DNA from: Robertkochia solimangrovi
GTDB lineage: Bacteria > Bacteroidota > Bacteroidia > Flavobacteriales > Flavobacteriaceae
Direction: 5' to 3'
Assembly (NCBI RefSeq): GCF_007279655.1
Contig: NZ_QKWN01000001.1
Coordinates: forward strand, 186,001-250,000
Length of the DNA stretch: 64,000 bases
The notes under the pieces are model-generated. The model ran no database searches, was not told where the DNA came from, and saw nothing but the letters and a program-made list of their open reading frames with translations. Below are positions 1,453-14,013 of this stretch, one piece after another. How positions within the stretch are numbered: the stretch's first letter is position 1; every line of letters begins with the position of its first letter. The position numbers were made by a program, and so were the translations under genes.

Positions 1453-2610
1453 TTAGTCAAGCCAGGATTTATGATAAGATTCATCTGCAATCTCCATCGC
1501 TTGTTTAGTAACCTTAAGCGGCTTGAACGTATCTACCATCACAGCGAGTTCGTCGGTCTTTGTTTTACCGATACTTCTCTCAACAGCGCCCGGATGCGGA
1601 CCATGAGGTATGCCGGCCGGATGTAGCGAAATATGTCCTTTATCAATATCATTCCTACTCATAAAATCACCGTCAACATAGTACAACACCTCGTCTGAAT
1701 CAATATTGCTGTGATTATAAGGAGCCGGAATACTTTCCGGATGGTAATCATACAACCGGGGCACAAAACTGCACACTACAAAAGCATCCGTTTCAAAGGT
1801 CTGGTGAACCGGCGGCGGCTGATGTATCCTGCCAGTTATGGGTTCAAAATCATGAATACTCAAGGCATACGGGAAATTAAATCCGTCATAACCCACAACG
1901 TCAAACGGATGTGTAGCATAGACCACATCGAATATTTCTTCCTGTTTTTTGATCTTGATCAGAAAATCACCTTTTTCATCATTGGTTTCCAGGGTTTCGG
2001 GGACTCGGATATCCCTTTCACAAAAAGGAGAATGTTCCAATAATTGTCCAAACCAGTTTCGGTATCGCTTAGGGGTGTATATAGGCCTTCTCGATTCCAC
2101 TATAAAAAGACGGTTATCTTCATCATCAAAATCCATTTTATAAATAGTCCCTCGCGGAATCAGCAAATAATCGCCATACCCAAATTTCAGATTTCCGAGA
2201 TGCGTTCGCAAGGTACCACTTCCTCTATGAATGAAGACAAGTTCATCCGCATCGGCATTCTTATAGAAATATTCAGTGGATCTGTTTTCCGGTGCGGCAA
2301 GAATTATGGTACAATCACTATTGGTAAGCACAGGAACCCTGCTCTCCAGATAATCTTTGGCAGGTTTAACCCTGAAACCATGAAAACGATAGGACTTTAT
2401 ATTATTTTCAATAGCGATCTCCGGAGAAACCTTTCTTTTACCCAGAATCTCCTTTACCTGTGTCGGACGATGTACATGATACAGGTTGGTCGACATTCCG
2501 TCAAAACCAATGGTGCCAAAAAGTTGTTCGTAATACAGTGACCCGTCGGGTTTCTTAAAGATGGTATGTCGCTTATGAGGTATATTTCCAAGTCTATGAT
2601 AAAAAGGCAT
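1453..2610 (-). CDS. hmgA: homogentisate 1,2-dioxygenase
   Basis: Ring-cleaving Fe(II) dioxygenase that turns homogentisate into maleylacetoacetate, the step after HPPD. A cupin-type protein of 385 residues from this start. The C-terminal part carries the His-rich segment HPAGIPHGPHPG, typical of the family's metal and substrate site. The frame is open back to 2634 (eight more residues), but I prefer the ATG at 2610. It gives the usual MPFYHRLG start, and a promoter-like GATATTTG lies on the minus strand at 2632-2639, overlapping the upstream ATG. It follows the patatin gene by about 60 bp on the same strand. Identity is secure; the start is probable. Confidence 0.93.
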   Translation of the reverse strand: MPFYHRLGNIPHKRHTIFKKPDGSLYYEQLFGTIGFDGMSTNLYHVHRPTQVKEILGKRKVSPEIAIENNIKSYRFHGFRVKPAKDYLESRVPVLTNSDCTIILAAPENRSTEYFYKNADADELVFIHRGSGTLRTHLGNLKFGYGDYLLIPRGTIYKMDFDDEDNRLFIVESRRPIYTPKRYRNWFGQLLEHSPFCERDIRVPETLETNDEKGDFLIKIKKQEEIFDVVYATHPFDVVGYDGFNFPYALSIHDFEPITGRIHQPPPVHQTFETDAFVVCSFVPRLYDYHPESIPAPYNHSNIDSDEVLYYVDGDFMSRNDIDKGHISLHPAGIPHGPHPGAVERSIGKTKTDELAVMVDTFKPLKVTKQAMEIADESYHKSWLD

Positions 2611-2672
2611 TTCGCAAACGTTTGAATATTCCAAATATCGGAATAATAAAGGAGATTCCTGCTAATAATTTC

Positions 2673-7330: not shown

Positions 7331-7900
7331 ATGGAAAAGGCCCGACTCCGTAGCCTGTATAAAAAGTTGCGAAACGAGCTTGGCAGCGATGAAATCGAAT
7401 CAAAGAGCATTTCAATTGCCAACCAAGCTTTAAAAATGGATATATGGAATCATAATTGTTACCATATCTTTCTCAGTATTGAACAACAAAAGGAGATCGA
7501 CACTTCCTTTCTACTAAGTATTCTTCAAGGTAAAGACAAAGACATTACCGTTTCCAGATCAGATTTTAAAACAGGAGAATTGGAACATATACTCCTAACC
7601 GACAACACCAAAATCAGCATTAATAATTACGGTATCCCTGAACCGGTAAACGGAATAGCTATCTCTCCTGAAAATATCGATGTTGTTTTCATCCCGCTTC
7701 TTGCCTATGACGAACATGGCAACCGAATTGGATACGGAAAAGGATTCTACGATCGCTTTCTGAGTAAATGCAAGGCTAATACCAAAAAGATCGGACTTTC
7801 CTTCTTTCCACCAGAGCATAAGATCACGGATATCCATGAAGGCGACATTCGGCTTGATGCATGCATCACACCAGAAGCTATTTATTATTTTGAAGTTTAG
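7331..7900 (+). CDS. 5-formyltetrahydrofolate cyclo-ligase
   Basis: ATP-dependent conversion of 5-formyl-THF to 5,10-methenyl-THF in one-carbon metabolism (MTHFS/YgfA family). The 189-residue protein starts with the family's basic helix (KARLRSLYKKLRNEL). It carries the signature VVFIPLLAYDEHG followed by RIGYGKGFYDRFL at about 118-145, the ATP/folate-binding loop. Length is typical. It follows the receiver-like gene by 3 bp. Its TAG stop overlaps the convergent lspA stop by 4 bp, so there is no room for a conventional terminator between the two. Confidence 0.95.
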   Translation: MEKARLRSLYKKLRNELGSDEIESKSISIANQALKMDIWNHNCYHIFLSIEQQKEIDTSFLLSILQGKDKDITVSRSDFKTGELEHILLTDNTKISINNYGIPEPVNGIAISPENIDVVFIPLLAYDEHGNRIGYGKGFYDRFLSKCKANTKKIGLSFFPPEHKITDIHEGDIRLDACITPEAIYYFEV

Positions 7901-8523
7901 TCTTCCTTTTTCTTTGGAAAGGCTTTCTTATTAAAAACGATCAAAACCCCTACTCCTGTACTGATCGCCGTATCTGCAATATTAAAGACCGGCTCAAAGA
8001 ATCTGAAGTTTTTACCTCCTACAACGGGCACCCATTCTGGCCATGTGGTATCGATCATTGGAAAATGAAGCATGTCGACCACTTTACCATGAAATAACGA
8101 CCCATAAGGTTCAGATGAAAACAAGGTTGCCACCTGCCCATAAGAATCATTGAAAATGACTCCGTAAAACACTGAATCAATAATATTACCCAAAGCACCG
8201 GCAAAGATCAGAGATATTGCAACCATAAGGGTTATGCTACTCTTTTTTCTGGCAGAATCATATAACCAGTAACCGATTCCACAGATTGCCACAATACGAA
8301 ATAAGGTAAGCGCAAGCTTTCCGGCTTCCTCAGAAACAAATGGAATTATATCGCTAATTCTTGTACCCCAGGCTGCCCCTTCATTCTCTATAAAGAGTAT
8401 TCTGAACCAACTGAAGACTTCGGTATATTCACCGAGTACAAAATGAGTCTTAATATAAATCTTTGAGAACTGATCGATCAAAAGGATCAGCACGATAAAC
8501 AGCGTAGCTTTCTTTAACGACAT
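7897..8523 (-). CDS. lspA: lipoprotein signal peptidase (signal peptidase II)
   Basis: Inner-membrane aspartic protease that cleaves prolipoproteins at the lipobox Cys. It serves the many lipoproteins in this window (azurin, DUF1080, efflux MFP and OMF, DUF4382). The 208-residue protein begins with a membrane helix containing DQFSKIYIK. It has the two catalytic Asp blocks: GNIIDSVFYG in the middle and FNIADTAISTGV near the C-terminus. It is longer than the ~165 residues of E. coli LspA because of an extra loop between the Asp blocks, which is usual in Bacteroidota. Its stop overlaps the convergent cyclo-ligase stop by 4 bp. Confidence 0.96.
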   Translation of the reverse strand: MSLKKATLFIVLILLIDQFSKIYIKTHFVLGEYTEVFSWFRILFIENEGAAWGTRISDIIPFVSEEAGKLALTLFRIVAICGIGYWLYDSARKKSSITLMVAISLIFAGALGNIIDSVFYGVIFNDSYGQVATLFSSEPYGSLFHGKVVDMLHFPMIDTTWPEWVPVVGGKNFRFFEPVFNIADTAISTGVGVLIVFNKKAFPKKKED

Positions 8524-8600: not shown

Positions 8601-9278
8601 TTATTCGTTTTCATTGATGTGTATATTTCCATTGACTGAATTAAATCGGAATTCACTTCCTCCCGGAACAACCTTTCCTTTAAAAATCTTACCATAGGAA
8701 GATTCTGCCCTGGCGATGACGCCTTTTATACCGGAAGCATGGATGTCGCCTGAAAATGTCCTTACCTCTATAAGTCCTGAAGTACCGACAAGGAATACAG
8801 GACCATCATAGGTCTTGATCTCCAAATCAGAGAAATTCCCTTTTGGCAACACTCTTGTGGCATGACCACTTAATGAAACTTTCACGGATTCCGGAACACT
8901 GATCACCAGATCAACAGAAACAACTTTATGAGCACTGAGTTTATCATTCGGATCTTTAAAAAGCGGCATAAACCTGCTTTCCACAAAAAGACTGGATCCC
9001 TTCTGATCTGCAGTGATCACAAGATCATTCCTGTACTCTCCCTCCATAGAAGCTATAATCGTAACCGAAGGTTTTCGATGGGTGTGTAATTCCACTCTGT
9101 ACATCTGATCTGCATTGATATTAACAGAAGTAAGGTCATGGGCATCAAACACCTTTTCCAATACTTTCTGTGCAGCAGCCGGACTAACGGATGCGAACAA
9201 AGAAAAGAACAGAAATGCTACAAAAAAACGCTCTTTGACAGAGCGTTTGTATAGTAAAAAGTTATTTATCCGATTCAA
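8601..9278 (-). CDS. exported protein of unknown function (adhesin-like beta-helix type)
   Basis: Not recognised beyond a secreted beta-rich protein. It has a signal peptide (KERFFVAFLFFSLFASV then AAAQ) and then about 190 residues of alternating beta-strands. These include LEIKTYDGPVFLVG and IEVRTFSGDIHASG, the repeated pattern seen in DUF4097/DUF2807-type putative adhesins. The start is uncertain: the frame is open to 9329 but overlaps the dksA-like gene, and no ATG lies between 9320 and the signal peptide. A TTG at 9278, just after the upstream stop, gives 225 residues and is my choice. A strong terminator hairpin (9222-9248) falls inside this 5' part, so expression may depend on read-through or on a start I have not identified. 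Confidence 0.7.
   Translation of the reverse strand: MNRINNFLLYKRSVKERFFVAFLFFSLFASVSPAAAQKVLEKVFDAHDLTSVNINADQMYRVELHTHRKPSVTIIASMEGEYRNDLVITADQKGSSLFVESRFMPLFKDPNDKLSAHKVVSVDLVISVPESVKVSLSGHATRVLPKGNFSDLEIKTYDGPVFLVGTSGLIEVRTFSGDIHASGIKGVIARAESSYGKIFKGKVVPGGSEFRFNSVNGNIHINENE
9222..9248 (-). terminator. intrinsic terminator after the dksA-like gene
   Basis: On the minus strand AAACGCTCT, a 5-nt loop GTCAA, then AGAGCGTTT followed by four more T: a perfect 9-bp stem with a U tract, 31 bp after the dksA-like stop codon. It lies within the 5' end of the longest reading frame of the next gene (8601-9278). Confidence 0.85.
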
Positions 9279-9279
9279 A

Positions 9280-9663
9280 TCAACTTTGCATATTCTTTGC
9301 TTCGATACTGAGTGTTGCATGAGGAACAAGTTTCAATCGCTCTTTATTGATCAGCTTTCCTGTAACTCTGCATATACCATAGGTCTTATTCTCAATACGA
9401 ACCAAAGCATTCTTAAGATCCCTGATGAATTTTTCCTGACGGATCGCAAGTTGCGTGTTCGCTTCCCTGCTCATGGTCTCTGACCCCTCTTCAAACGCCT
9501 TAAATGTAGGCGAGGTATCATCGGTACCATTGTTACCGTCATTTTTATATGAGCTCTTCAACAGATCCAGATCCATTTTAGCTTTTTCGATCTTATTTTC
9601 AATAAGAACTCTGAATTCATCCAGGTCCTTATCCGAGTACCTTACTTTAATATCTGCATCCAT
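9280..9663 (-). CDS. TraR/DksA family transcriptional regulator
   Basis: RNA-polymerase secondary-channel binding protein of the DksA/TraR family, expected to modulate transcription in stringent-type responses. The 127-residue protein starts at MDADIKVRY. The frame is open to 9744, but that would run into ileS, whose stop is at 9668, only 4 bp from this ATG. It has a long N-terminal coiled-coil (about 8-80), then the C-terminal TYGICRVTGKLINKERL followed by PHATLSIEAK. Only the first of the four zinc-finger cysteines remains (C, then T, P, S-type residues), so the finger probably folds without zinc. It is cotranscribed with ileS and ends in a strong terminator. Confidence 0.9.
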   Translation of the reverse strand: MDADIKVRYSDKDLDEFRVLIENKIEKAKMDLDLLKSSYKNDGNNGTDDTSPTFKAFEEGSETMSREANTQLAIRQEKFIRDLKNALVRIENKTYGICRVTGKLINKERLKLVPHATLSIEAKNMQS

Positions 9664-9667
9664 AGTA

Positions 9668-12600
9668 CTAGTGTTTTTGTATGAACAATCTGGTATTGAC
9701 CTCATCAAAAGCAATATCTGTGCCGAGTTCAAGGTGTTCTTCAAAATTCAAATGTGCTGTCAGTGTCTCTGCTTTTATATATTCAAGATTACTCTGAACA
9801 GCCTCTTCTACAAATCCATCTTTCTGAAGCTTGACATCAATTTTATCAGTCACTTCAAAACCGGAATCCTTACGAAGGTTTTGAATTCTGTTCACCAATT
9901 CTCTCGCAACTCCTTCTTTGCGGAGGTCTTCGGTGATTGTAACATCCAGGGCTACTGTAATTGCTCCTGAGCTGGCCACTAACCAACCTTCTATATCCTG
10001 CGATGATATTTCAACTTCATCGCATTCTAAAATAATACTTTTTCCATTAATATCAAGTGTGATTGACCCCTCCCGTTCGATATGTTGTATATCTTTTTGG
10101 TCGAATGCACTTATTGCATTGACAATCAACTTCATATCTTTACCGAAACGCGGACCTAACACCTTGAAATTCGGTTTGATCTGTTTCACCAGTATTCCGG
10201 AAGCGTCATCGATTAGTTCGATCTCTTTGACATTAACCTCCGACTTTATCAGGTTTTCCACCTCCTTGATCTCAGCCTTCTGAGCTTCGTCAAGAACCGG
10301 AATCATTACTTTTTTAAGGGGTTGTCTCACTTTGATCATTTCCTTCTTACGCAATGACAACACAAGGGAAGAAACGATCTGAGCTTTTTCCATTTTGCTC
10401 TCCAGTGATTTATCAACAAAATTTTCAACACTTACCGGAAATTTTGCAAGGTGAACACTCTCGCTTTTCTCCTTTCCGGAAACAGCATTCAAGTCTCTGT
10501 ACAACTGATCCATAAAGAATGGCGCCACCGGGGCTCCCAGCTTAGCAACAGTTATGAGACAGGTATATAACGTCTGATACGCTGATATCTTATCCGTCCC
10601 GTAATCACCTTTCCAAAAACGTCTTCTGCTCAAACGTACGAACCAGTTACTCAGGTTCTCCTGAACAAAATCAGAGATAGCACGACTCGCTTTTGTCGGT
10701 TCATAATCTGCAAATGCCTCATCGACTTTAGCGACAAGTGTATTTAACTCTGAAAGAATCCAGCGATCTATTTCCGGACGTTGCTCGAAAGGCACTTCAT
10801 CTTCCGCGTATGTGAAATTATCGATATTCGCATACAGACTAAAGAACGAATAGGTGTTGTAAAGCGTACCGAAGAACTTCCTTCTTACTTCTGCTACGCC
10901 TTCCAGATCGAACTTAAGGTTATCCCATGGATTGGCATTACTGATCATATACCAACGGGTGGCATCCGGGCCATACTCCTCAATGGTCGTAAACGGATCT
11001 ACAGCATTCCCCAGTCTTTTAGACATTTTCTGTCCGTTCTTATCGAGTACGAGTCCGTTTGATACTACATTCTTATAGGCAACAGAATCGAATACCATGG
11101 TCCCGATAGCATGAAGTGTATAAAACCAACCTCTGGTCTGATCGACACCTTCTGCAATATAATCTGCAGGAAATGCTTTACCTTCATCGATCTTTTCCTT
11201 ATTCTCAAAAGGATAATGCCATTGTGCATAAGGCATTGATCCGGAATCGAACCATACATCGATCAGATCACTCTCACGTTTCATTTCCTTACCTGAAGGA
11301 GCCACGAGAACGATCTTGTCTACTACATTTTTATGGAGATCCACTTTTTCATAGTTCTCCTCACTCATATCCCCAACAACAAAGTCATCGAATATATCCT
11401 GTGCCATGAAACCTGCAGCAACAGATTTTTTCATTTCAGCTTTCAATTCCTCAACAGAACCTATGATCAGCTCCTCTTTACCGTCTTCCGTTCTCCATAT
11501 CGGCAAAGGTATTCCCCAGAATCGGGAGCGTGAAAGATTCCAGTCATTGGCATTTTGCAACCAGTTTCCGAATCGACCTTCACCGGTTGCTTTAGGCTTC
11601 CAATTGATCGTTGTATTCAGATCGAACATACGATCTTTAATTTCAGTCACTTTGATGAACCAGGAATCCAGCGGATAATAAAGTACCGGCTTATCAGTTC
11701 TCCAACAATGCGGATAACTATGGACATATTTTTCAACCTTAAAGGCTTTATTCTCTTCTTTGAGCTTGATAGCGATCTCTACATCTACAGACTTCTCCGG
11801 AACTTCGGCATCACTGTAATACTCATTCTTCACATATTTACCGCCGATCTCAGCTAATTCTTCACGAAATCTTCCCTGAAGATCTACCAGTGGTACAGGA
11901 TTGTTATTCTCATCCAGTACCAGCATCGGTGGCACTTCAGGTTTCGCTTCTCTGGCTACCTTGGCATCATCCGCACCAAATGTCGGTGCAGTATGTACAA
12001 TACCAGTACCATCTTCAGTAGTTACGAAATCTCCCGAAATAACACGGAATGCATTTTCCGGGTGTTGATACGGCAACGCATAATTCAGCAACTGCTCATA
12101 ACGAGATCCGACGATAGCTGCTCCTTTGAAGGATGCGACCACAAGGAAAGGTATCTTCTTGTCTTCGCTGCTATAATTCTCAAGATCAGTCTCGCTTTCA
12201 GCTTCAGTATATTTTCCCGCAAAGGTTTTTGATAACAGTGGCCTCGCCAACACCAGGTTAACCGGTTCAAAGGTATATTGATTAAAGGTCTTTACCAGTA
12301 CATAATCAATTTTCGGCCCTACAGTAAGAGCAGTGTTTGATGGTAAAGTCCATGGTGTTGTGGTCCAGGCAAGAAAATGCACGGCTCCAAACCCTTGCAG
12401 AACTTCCGGAAGACTATCCTGTACCGCTTTGAACTGCGCGATTACGGTAGTATCCGAAACGTCCTTATACGTACCCGGCTGATTTAGCTCATGTGAACTC
12501 AAACCGGTACCGGCCTTTGGTGAATAAGGCTGAATGGTATAACCTTTATACAGCAGATTCTTATCATAGATCTGTTTCAGCAACCACCAAACGCTTTCCA

Positions 12601-13066
12601 TGTATTTGGATTTATAGGTAACATACGGATCTTCCATATCCACCCAATACCCGATCTTACGGGTCATATCATTCCAAATATCAGTATATCGCATCACTGC
12701 CTTTTTACAGGCAGCATTATATTCTTCAACAGAGATCTTTGTCCCGATATCTTCCTTGGTAATACCGAGTTCCTTTTCTACTCCTAGCTCCACAGGAAGA
12801 CCATGGGTATCCCATCCGGCTTTTCTTTTAACCTGAAATCCTTTCTGGGTTTTATATCTACAGAAAATATCCTTGATCGTTCGGGCCATTACGTGGTGAA
12901 TACCCGGTAAACCGTTAGCGGACGGCGGGCCTTCAAAAAACACGAAGGGTTTATTGCCCTCTCTTTCGGTAATACTTTTTTCAAAAATGCCATTATCTTC
13001 CCAGTACTTCAGAATCTCTTCTGCAGTACGTGGTAAATCCATTGCCTTATATTCTGTAAACTTCAT
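9668..13066 (-). CDS. ileS: isoleucyl-tRNA synthetase, IleRS2 type with swapped HIGH motif
   Basis: Charges tRNA-Ile. At 1132 residues with a long C-terminal region it is the eukaryote-like IleRS2 form rather than the ~940-residue bacterial type 1. The first signature is at residues 55-58 and reads G-I-H-H where HIGH (H-x-G-H) is expected; the context GPPSANGLP before it aligns without gaps. The second signature, KMSKR, is at 680-684. The editing domain is present (about 195-400, with WTTTPWTLPSN and GTGIVHTAPTFGADD). The C-terminal half holds the anticodon-binding helical domain. The swapped motif is known from IleRS2 enzymes with extreme mupirocin resistance; resistance here is inferred. 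Confidence 0.97.
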   Translation of the reverse strand: MKFTEYKAMDLPRTAEEILKYWEDNGIFEKSITEREGNKPFVFFEGPPSANGLPGIHHVMARTIKDIFCRYKTQKGFQVKRKAGWDTHGLPVELGVEKELGITKEDIGTKISVEEYNAACKKAVMRYTDIWNDMTRKIGYWVDMEDPYVTYKSKYMESVWWLLKQIYDKNLLYKGYTIQPYSPKAGTGLSSHELNQPGTYKDVSDTTVIAQFKAVQDSLPEVLQGFGAVHFLAWTTTPWTLPSNTALTVGPKIDYVLVKTFNQYTFEPVNLVLARPLLSKTFAGKYTEAESETDLENYSSEDKKIPFLVVASFKGAAIVGSRYEQLLNYALPYQHPENAFRVISGDFVTTEDGTGIVHTAPTFGADDAKVAREAKPEVPPMLVLDENNNPVPLVDLQGRFREELAEIGGKYVKNEYYSDAEVPEKSVDVEIAIKLKEENKAFKVEKYVHSYPHCWRTDKPVLYYPLDSWFIKVTEIKDRMFDLNTTINWKPKATGEGRFGNWLQNANDWNLSRSRFWGIPLPIWRTEDGKEELIIGSVEELKAEMKKSVAAGFMAQDIFDDFVVGDMSEENYEKVDLHKNVVDKIVLVAPSGKEMKRESDLIDVWFDSGSMPYAQWHYPFENKEKIDEGKAFPADYIAEGVDQTRGWFYTLHAIGTMVFDSVAYKNVVSNGLVLDKNGQKMSKRLGNAVDPFTTIEEYGPDATRWYMISNANPWDNLKFDLEGVAEVRRKFFGTLYNTYSFFSLYANIDNFTYAEDEVPFEQRPEIDRWILSELNTLVAKVDEAFADYEPTKASRAISDFVQENLSNWFVRLSRRRFWKGDYGTDKISAYQTLYTCLITVAKLGAPVAPFFMDQLYRDLNAVSGKEKSESVHLAKFPVSVENFVDKSLESKMEKAQIVSSLVLSLRKKEMIKVRQPLKKVMIPVLDEAQKAEIKEVENLIKSEVNVKEIELIDDASGILVKQIKPNFKVLGPRFGKDMKLIVNAISAFDQKDIQHIEREGSITLDINGKSIILECDEVEISSQDIEGWLVASSGAITVALDVTITEDLRKEGVARELVNRIQNLRKDSGFEVTDKIDVKLQKDGFVEEAVQSNLEYIKAETLTAHLNFEEHLELGTDIAFDEVNTRLFIQKH

Positions 13067-13296: not shown

Positions 13297-14013
13297 CTAG
13301 TGAAATACCGATTGCAGGATATCGAGTGATTTCGGCTTTCGGAATCCGTGAAGATGTATCTGATAATATTCAACGAGCATATTCAACATACGCACCCGTT
13401 GACCTCGATTCATGCGTACTGAAGACATATTCTCAAAACCGGCCTCCATCAGCGATGAAAGTATATCCAAAAGATCACCGGACGCTGAGGGATTTAGCGT
13501 ATTTTCCACCAATTCACCTTCAACAAGATCGAAAACAGGAGCCCCTTCATTAGAAAAATCAGGATAAAACCCCAAAAATCGGGTAAGATGAAGCATAAAT
13601 ACAATATGAAAACTCGCCATATCTTCATTCTCATCCAACCAGTCTGCAGCTCTGATGATAAAATCATACAGGTCCGGATCATCATCGGTTTCCTGAACAC
13701 CGTATTGTACTACTTCTGCTAAGAACATCACCAGACTTGATTTCACAATATCGGTCTGAAGACTTTGATAATGATGCGCCAGTCTTACTTCCCGAAGGGT
13801 CTCCAGGGAACCTTTATCTTTATGAGAAGCGACAACCTCCAATTGCGTAAAAGGCTGGAAATATCCCGGTCTTATCTTCTTCTTTCCAGGAGAACGAACC
13901 CCTTTAAGCATATACGATCTCAAACCGTAATTCTCCGTAAGCAATCTTGCGATGAGACTGGACTCACCATACTTGATTACTGAAAGTACTATTGCATTGG
14001 TTTTAACGAGCAT
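13297..14013 (-). CDS. recO: DNA repair protein RecO
   Basis: Recombination mediator that loads RecA on SSB-coated DNA with RecR (RecFOR pathway). The 238-residue protein has the N-terminal OB-fold signature (LVKTNAIVLSVIKYGESSLI, then LRSYMLKGVRS at about 32-42). A helical C-terminal domain follows (about 85-238), ending in GFRKPKSLDIL. The usual zinc-finger cysteines found in many RecO proteins are absent. Length and order fit the family. It is followed by a 230-bp gap before the ileS start; gdhA with its own terminator lies upstream. Confidence 0.93.
   Translation of the reverse strand: MLVKTNAIVLSVIKYGESSLIARLLTENYGLRSYMLKGVRSPGKKKIRPGYFQPFTQLEVVASHKDKGSLETLREVRLAHHYQSLQTDIVKSSLVMFLAEVVQYGVQETDDDPDLYDFIIRAADWLDENEDMASFHIVFMLHLTRFLGFYPDFSNEGAPVFDLVEGELVENTLNPSASGDLLDILSSLMEAGFENMSSVRMNRGQRVRMLNMLVEYYQIHLHGFRKPKSLDILQSVFH

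Follow-up and report, generated by a model that had tools for sequence, protein, structure and literature searches.

A swapped class I signature motif, GXHH, in the type 2 isoleucyl-tRNA synthetase of a flavobacterium and its sampled relatives in the Bacteroidota

The window, which is the whole 64,000-nucleotide stretch of DNA analysed here, encodes an isoleucyl-tRNA synthetase (IleRS) in which the class I signature motif HXGH is replaced by GIHH. We put at about 90% the probability that this enzyme is the sole, housekeeping IleRS of its host and belongs to type 2 (IleRS2), that His57 is catalytic and mupirocin binding weak, as predicted by analogy with characterised enzymes, and that the swapped state is inherited and common to the phylum as sampled. 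The sequence, type, single copy, context and distribution of the enzyme were observed directly.

Results

The ileS gene lies at positions 9668 to 13066 on the reverse strand and, read from its ATG start, encodes a protein of 1132 amino acids. The product scored 990.4 bits against the NCBIfam equivalog model TIGR00392, for which the curated cut-off is 621.4, which places it in the IleRS family. It contains the Pfam domains PF00133 (class I catalytic), PF08264 (anticodon-binding) and PF19302 (DUF5915), the last of which spans residues 938-1131. The reading frame is intact, and the editing-domain stretches TTTPWTLP and EDGTG are present.

The swapped motif was located in the ORF translation at residues 55-58 (12893 to 12904, reverse strand), between GPPSANGLP and VMARTIKD, confirming the original prediction of GIHH in an otherwise normal context. 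In gap-free phmmer alignments to solved structures, GIHH lay opposite HVGH in the P. megaterium (8c8u, 8c8v and 8c9d) and T. thermophilus (1ile) IleRS2s and opposite GVHH in chain 8c8w. The first and third positions of HxGH are thus exchanged, as had been proposed by eye, and the site, in register with HXGH, has the features that define G/AXHH enzymes, namely Gly (or Ala) first and His third. It had also been suggested that a true HxGH nearby in the protein would speak against the swap; none was found, and the 1132-aa protein contains no H.GH, G.HH or A.HH string other than GIHH.

By the sequence hallmarks tested, the window IleRS is a type 2 enzyme. Its best solved relatives are IleRS2s: a P. 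megaterium IleRS2 chain scored 777 bits, whereas no type 1 chain exceeded 309 bits, and the region of the second motif alone gave 188 bits to type 2 versus 70 bits to type 1. Type 1 enzymes have been characterised by the signatures Tyr59, NKIL and SSL and type 2 enzymes by HYPFE (Cvetesic et al. 2016, PMC4861432). The two type 1 signatures checked, Tyr59 and NKIL, are both absent: alignment places Ser49 (12920 to 12922, reverse strand) at the site of the type 1 Tyr in GPPYANG (E. coli Tyr59), and ARTIKD stands for NKIL. GPPYANG is present in both IleRS1 outgroups. The type 2 (eukaryote-like) signature HYPFE is found at residues 617-621 (11204 to 11218, reverse strand). Phe or Thr is given for type 2 enzymes at the Tyr59 site (PMC4861432), from which Ser would be a small departure. 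Residues 881-1132 contain one Cys only (Cys1015), and the type 1 C-terminal zinc-binding motif is therefore missing; a C-terminal domain without this motif is a hallmark of type 2 (PMC10485003, section 8). On our own reading, Ala61 would be the counterpart of Asn70 of P. megaterium IleRS1, a residue that contacts mupirocin (PMC10485003, section 9).

The original prediction had called for a search for a second ileS elsewhere in the genome. One copy over the family cut-off was found in the assembly (4.4 Mb, 23 contigs, rated 100% complete), and that copy is the window gene. The other genome matches were ORFs of 880, 960 and 717 amino acids, all under the ileS cut-off, which were taken for the Val, Leu and Met relatives of IleRS. 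Apparently, the window enzyme is the ordinary and sole IleRS of this flavobacterium.

The genes around ileS are arranged in the order recO, ileS, dksA-like, small ORF and lspA. The upstream neighbour recO (13297 to 14013, reverse strand) was identified by PF11967 and PF02565, and lspA, encoding lipoprotein signal peptidase (7897 to 8523, reverse strand), by PF01252. Directly downstream of ileS lies a dksA/traR-type zinc-finger gene (9280 to 9663, reverse strand; PF01258, 30.3 bits), for which we infer a start at an internal ATG of the mechanical ORF (9280 to 9744). A dksA match was present on the ileS strand in all 80 of the named relatives listed, at -73 to +68 bases from the end of the ileS match, which upholds the dksA-like neighbour and housekeeping context noted at the outset. 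In these 80 loci, of which some had clipped flanks, lspA was found on the ileS strand in 75 and recO in 44. From the inferred start, the dksA-like protein has by eye a single Cys, and the four-Cys zinc site of the PF01258 family therefore looks lost. The ORF between dksA and lspA (8601 to 9329, reverse strand) had no Pfam match, and a similar stretch was seen in 26 of the 80 named loci listed. Elsewhere in the window, the ORFs at 113 to 1261 and 1453 to 2634 (both reverse strand) resemble by eye 4-hydroxyphenylpyruvate dioxygenase and homogentisate dioxygenase, two enzymes of tyrosine degradation.

The closest named relatives of the window gene among the matches listed are Flavobacteriaceae, with 81-82% and 79% identity. 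The IleRS tree, which had one non-Bacteroidota IleRS2 only and long outgroup branches, placed the gene inside the Flavobacteriaceae, with L035 as its neighbour (support 92) and Allomuricauda and Maribacter close by. The G+C content of ileS is 42.2%, compared with 40.6% for the window; between 3.4-kb segments the standard deviation is 1.0%. Gene order, G+C content and tree agree in giving no support for recent transfer of ileS, and, within the family, the earlier statement that nothing pointed to transfer is upheld. In Riemerella anatipestifer, a 102-kb sequence labelled as a plasmid (NZ_CP081938.1) carries ileS (GIHH, KMSKR), dksA, lspA and lepA (locus L241); with genes of a core kind aboard, it is possibly a chromosomal fragment that was closed as a plasmid.

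The distribution of the swap was investigated in 395 genomes drawn evenly from the window's phylum, which is Bacteroidota, as the named relatives of the window gene belong there. A match at E <= 1e-100 was found in 391 of them; of the remaining four, G346 gave a fragment and G176, G338 and G354 gave matches under the ileS cut-off. G176 is rated 100% complete yet has no ileS over the family cut-off, probably through an assembly gap. Letters were read for 278 distinct genes, the window gene included, comprising 80 named loci (all those among the matches listed being Flavobacteria or Bacteroidetes relatives) and genes from 198 of the 391 matching draw genomes. The motif site read GIHH in 222 genes, GVHH in 48, GLHH in five and GMHH in one, and was unreadable in two, one truncated (L136) and the other, whose frame has an internal stop, represented by its longest matching piece (L267). 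All 276 readable sites thus carried GXHH, and the readable genes covered 54 of the 55 family labels of the draw. Canonical HIGH was found in the outgroups, namely Paenibacillus IleRS2, Fusobacterium IleRS1 and Shinella IleRS1.

Several loci were left out of these counts: two entries for the window gene itself (L001 and L145), two identical to other loci (L013 and L014, to L068 and L062), two representing the same genes as others (L131 and L144, as L231 and L232), 13 with a best ORF under 300 bits and 10 without an ORF match, these being other synthetases or fragments. The letters of G272, in which a match was found in a frame with an internal stop, were also left out; in L233 the motif site was readable and the second motif was not. 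An HxGH string within the first 160 residues of the L278 ORF was rejected as belonging to an upstream stretch of the open frame, the aligned site being GIHH.

From these sequences, the swap looks fixed in the phylum and would be a trait of the group rather than of the host, although with 198 of the 391 matching genomes read by letter a rare reversion of the kind described in Deinococcus-Thermus (PMC10485003) could escape the sample. Since all 276 readable sites in the phylum have it, the swap carries no sign of special adaptation in this host. The swap put forward in the original prediction therefore stands, whereas its scope as a trait of a single host does not.

The second class I signature loop also departs from consensus, reading KMSKR for KMSKS at residues 680-684 (11015 to 11029, reverse strand; sequence reading). 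In the 278-gene set, this loop read KMSKR in 131 genes, KMSKS in 130 and KMSKT in 11, with five single or double variants and one unreadable. We compared the fifth place in a 208-gene set. Of its genes, 134 formed a class-level set, comprising families f1-f12 together with the 80 named loci, and 74 came from elsewhere in the phylum. Arg was present in 123 of the 134 class-level genes versus one of the 74 others, among which Ser (62) and Thr (7) prevailed. The Tyr59-site stretch in the same 208 genes read GPPSANG in 134, GPPTANG in 58 and GPPTVNG in 15, and was unreadable in one. On a 104-row tree the KMSKR label needed five changes, and Ser occurred inside the KMSKR class in a Flavobacterium clade, in Myroides and in one f8 row, which we read as returns from Arg. 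Outside the class, KMSKS stands in 62 of 74 genes and every readable first motif is GXHH, and a link between KMSKR and the first-motif swap is therefore unsupported.

Discussion

The biochemistry of swapped motifs has been described by Brkic et al. (2023, PMC10485003), who counted 86 G/AXHH motifs among 163 prokaryotic IleRS2s and none among the IleRS1s; in sections 6, 8 and 11 of that paper, type 2 is the sole IleRS type reported to tolerate the swap. Exchanging the motif in either direction shifted the mupirocin Ki roughly 175- to 820-fold: from 0.20 to 35 µM on changing HVGH to GVHH in T. thermophilus IleRS2, from 1.08 to 460 µM on the same change in P. megaterium IleRS2, and from 6600 to 8.1 µM on changing the natural ALHH of D. 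radiodurans IleRS2 to HVGH (PMC10485003). These data bear out the statement, in the original prediction, that some IleRS2s have a GxHH form which gives extreme mupirocin resistance. The GVHH mutants of the T. thermophilus and P. megaterium enzymes had a decreased kcat and an increased KM. The motif helix of type 2 enzymes is shifted, and the third His replaces the first and is modelled to clash with mupirocin (PMC10485003).

The window IleRS has, in its sequence, what the published G/AXHH mechanism calls for. By analogy with the characterised GXHH/AXHH IleRS2s, the shifted motif helix of type 2 enzymes would let a His fit at position three, so that His57 could substitute for the absent first His in the transition state. 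His57 would also be expected to clash with mupirocin, and binding would consequently be predicted only at tens of micromolar to millimolar. The level of insensitivity is not readable from the motif alone, because the published Ki values for GXHH/AXHH enzymes span 35 µM (the T. thermophilus mutant) to 6600 µM (D. radiodurans). The window enzyme departs from the characterised ones in its KMSKR loop and in the Ser for which PMC4861432 gives Phe or Thr. Natural mupirocin insensitivity of the host is, on the strength of this analogy, a well-founded prediction, and the swapped state would have been inherited by the host, phylum-wide as sampled, rather than acquired by it.

The swap might instead be a resistance trait acquired or selected in the host or its near relatives, for example by way of pseudomonic-acid producers. 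GXHH IleRS2s are hyper-resistant (PMC10485003), and marine Pseudoalteromonas make thiomarinols, which are pseudomonic-acid hybrids (PMC3069032). However, GXHH fills every readable site across nearly all family labels, many of them far from the window, the window gene falls within the Flavobacteriaceae on the tree, and the gene order is conserved. Acquisition as a recent or host-level event is mostly refuted, and we regard this explanation as very improbable. A little less probable still is that a second, canonical ileS does the housekeeping and the GIHH gene is a specialised resistance copy. Some genomes are known to carry an additional IleRS2 gene or to have one on a plasmid (PMC10485003, section 11), but a single ileS exceeded the cut-off here in an assembly rated complete; barring a further gene missed by the draft of 23 contigs, this idea is refuted.

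The absence of the first catalytic His could also mean that the enzyme is impaired or has another role, for mutation of this residue in several class I enzymes cuts activation about a thousandfold (PMC10485003, section 6). Against this, the enzyme is the sole IleRS found in the genome, its frame is intact with both editing-domain stretches retained, and the natural ALHH enzyme of D. radiodurans has a kcat of 45.5 per s (PMC10485003), which makes impairment even more improbable. A sequencing or assembly error, in favour of which no point was found, has a negligible chance of being correct, as GXHH recurs at all readable sites, in the window and in other assemblies. An inherited GIHH motif in a functional, sole housekeeping IleRS2 is the reading that we prefer.

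A broader reading, to which we would give slightly less than even odds, is that GXHH became fixed a single time, close to the base of the Bacteroidota, and has since been retained as an independent catalytic arrangement regardless of each lineage's exposure to the drug. The phylum would then be target-insensitive, and a change from KMSKS to KMSKR would have been added in the window's class, leaving both class I motifs there off consensus. If GXHH is invariant in the Bacteroidota, the phylum is predicted to be target-insensitive to mupirocin, genome surveys should not score its ileS as acquired resistance, and it offers many natural enzymes for testing if resistance or catalysis is what maintains the swap. 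Anaerobes including Bacteroides have been reported to be mupirocin-resistant.

Among the literature matches listed, no mupirocin measurements on Bacteroidota were recognised: mupirocin-resistance genes were predicted from annotation alone in Candidatus Ornithobacterium hominis (PMC10835994) and Flavobacterium spartansii (PMC5714932), and PMC7564983 names mupirocin in its staphylococcal panel. Brkic et al. (2023) was the sole paper recovered on searching the literature for GXHH together with IleRS, and none of the matches listed joins IleRS2 with Bacteroidetes or Bacteroidota. The main text of Brkic et al. contains neither "Bacteroid" nor "Flavobacter", though its figures and supplement may differ, and that of Cvetesic et al. 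contains neither "Bacteroidetes" nor "Flavobacter". The swap itself is already published; its phylum-wide scope is a useful addition, without a claim that this scope is unreported.

Compared with known systems, the window IleRS is homologous to MupA and MupB, the mupirocin-resistant IleRSs (NCBIfam NF000257 and NF000258). It was rejected as either of them, its scores of 733 and 762 bits being far under the 1900-bit cut-offs; moreover, mupA is carried on staphylococcal plasmids, whereas the window ileS is a single gene in a chromosomal context. The IleRS of Plasmodium falciparum shares the KMSKR loop but has HYGH as its first motif in place of GIHH (PMC12077802). The canonical IleRS2s of P. megaterium (8c8u), T. 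thermophilus (1ile) and Paenibacillus cellulosilyticus (L237) are of the same type as the window enzyme, the first two being its best solved relatives, but carry HXGH where it has GIHH, and the T. thermophilus and P. megaterium enzymes have mupirocin Ki values of 0.20 and 1.08 µM (PMC10485003). The G/AXHH IleRS2s of Streptomyces griseus and D. radiodurans agree with it in type, swap and housekeeping role (PMC10485003). Mupirocin hyper-resistance was found for the G/AXHH enzymes of that study and is only predicted for the window IleRS, which is set apart from the S. griseus and D. radiodurans enzymes by its GIHH form, its Bacteroidota host and its KMSKR loop.
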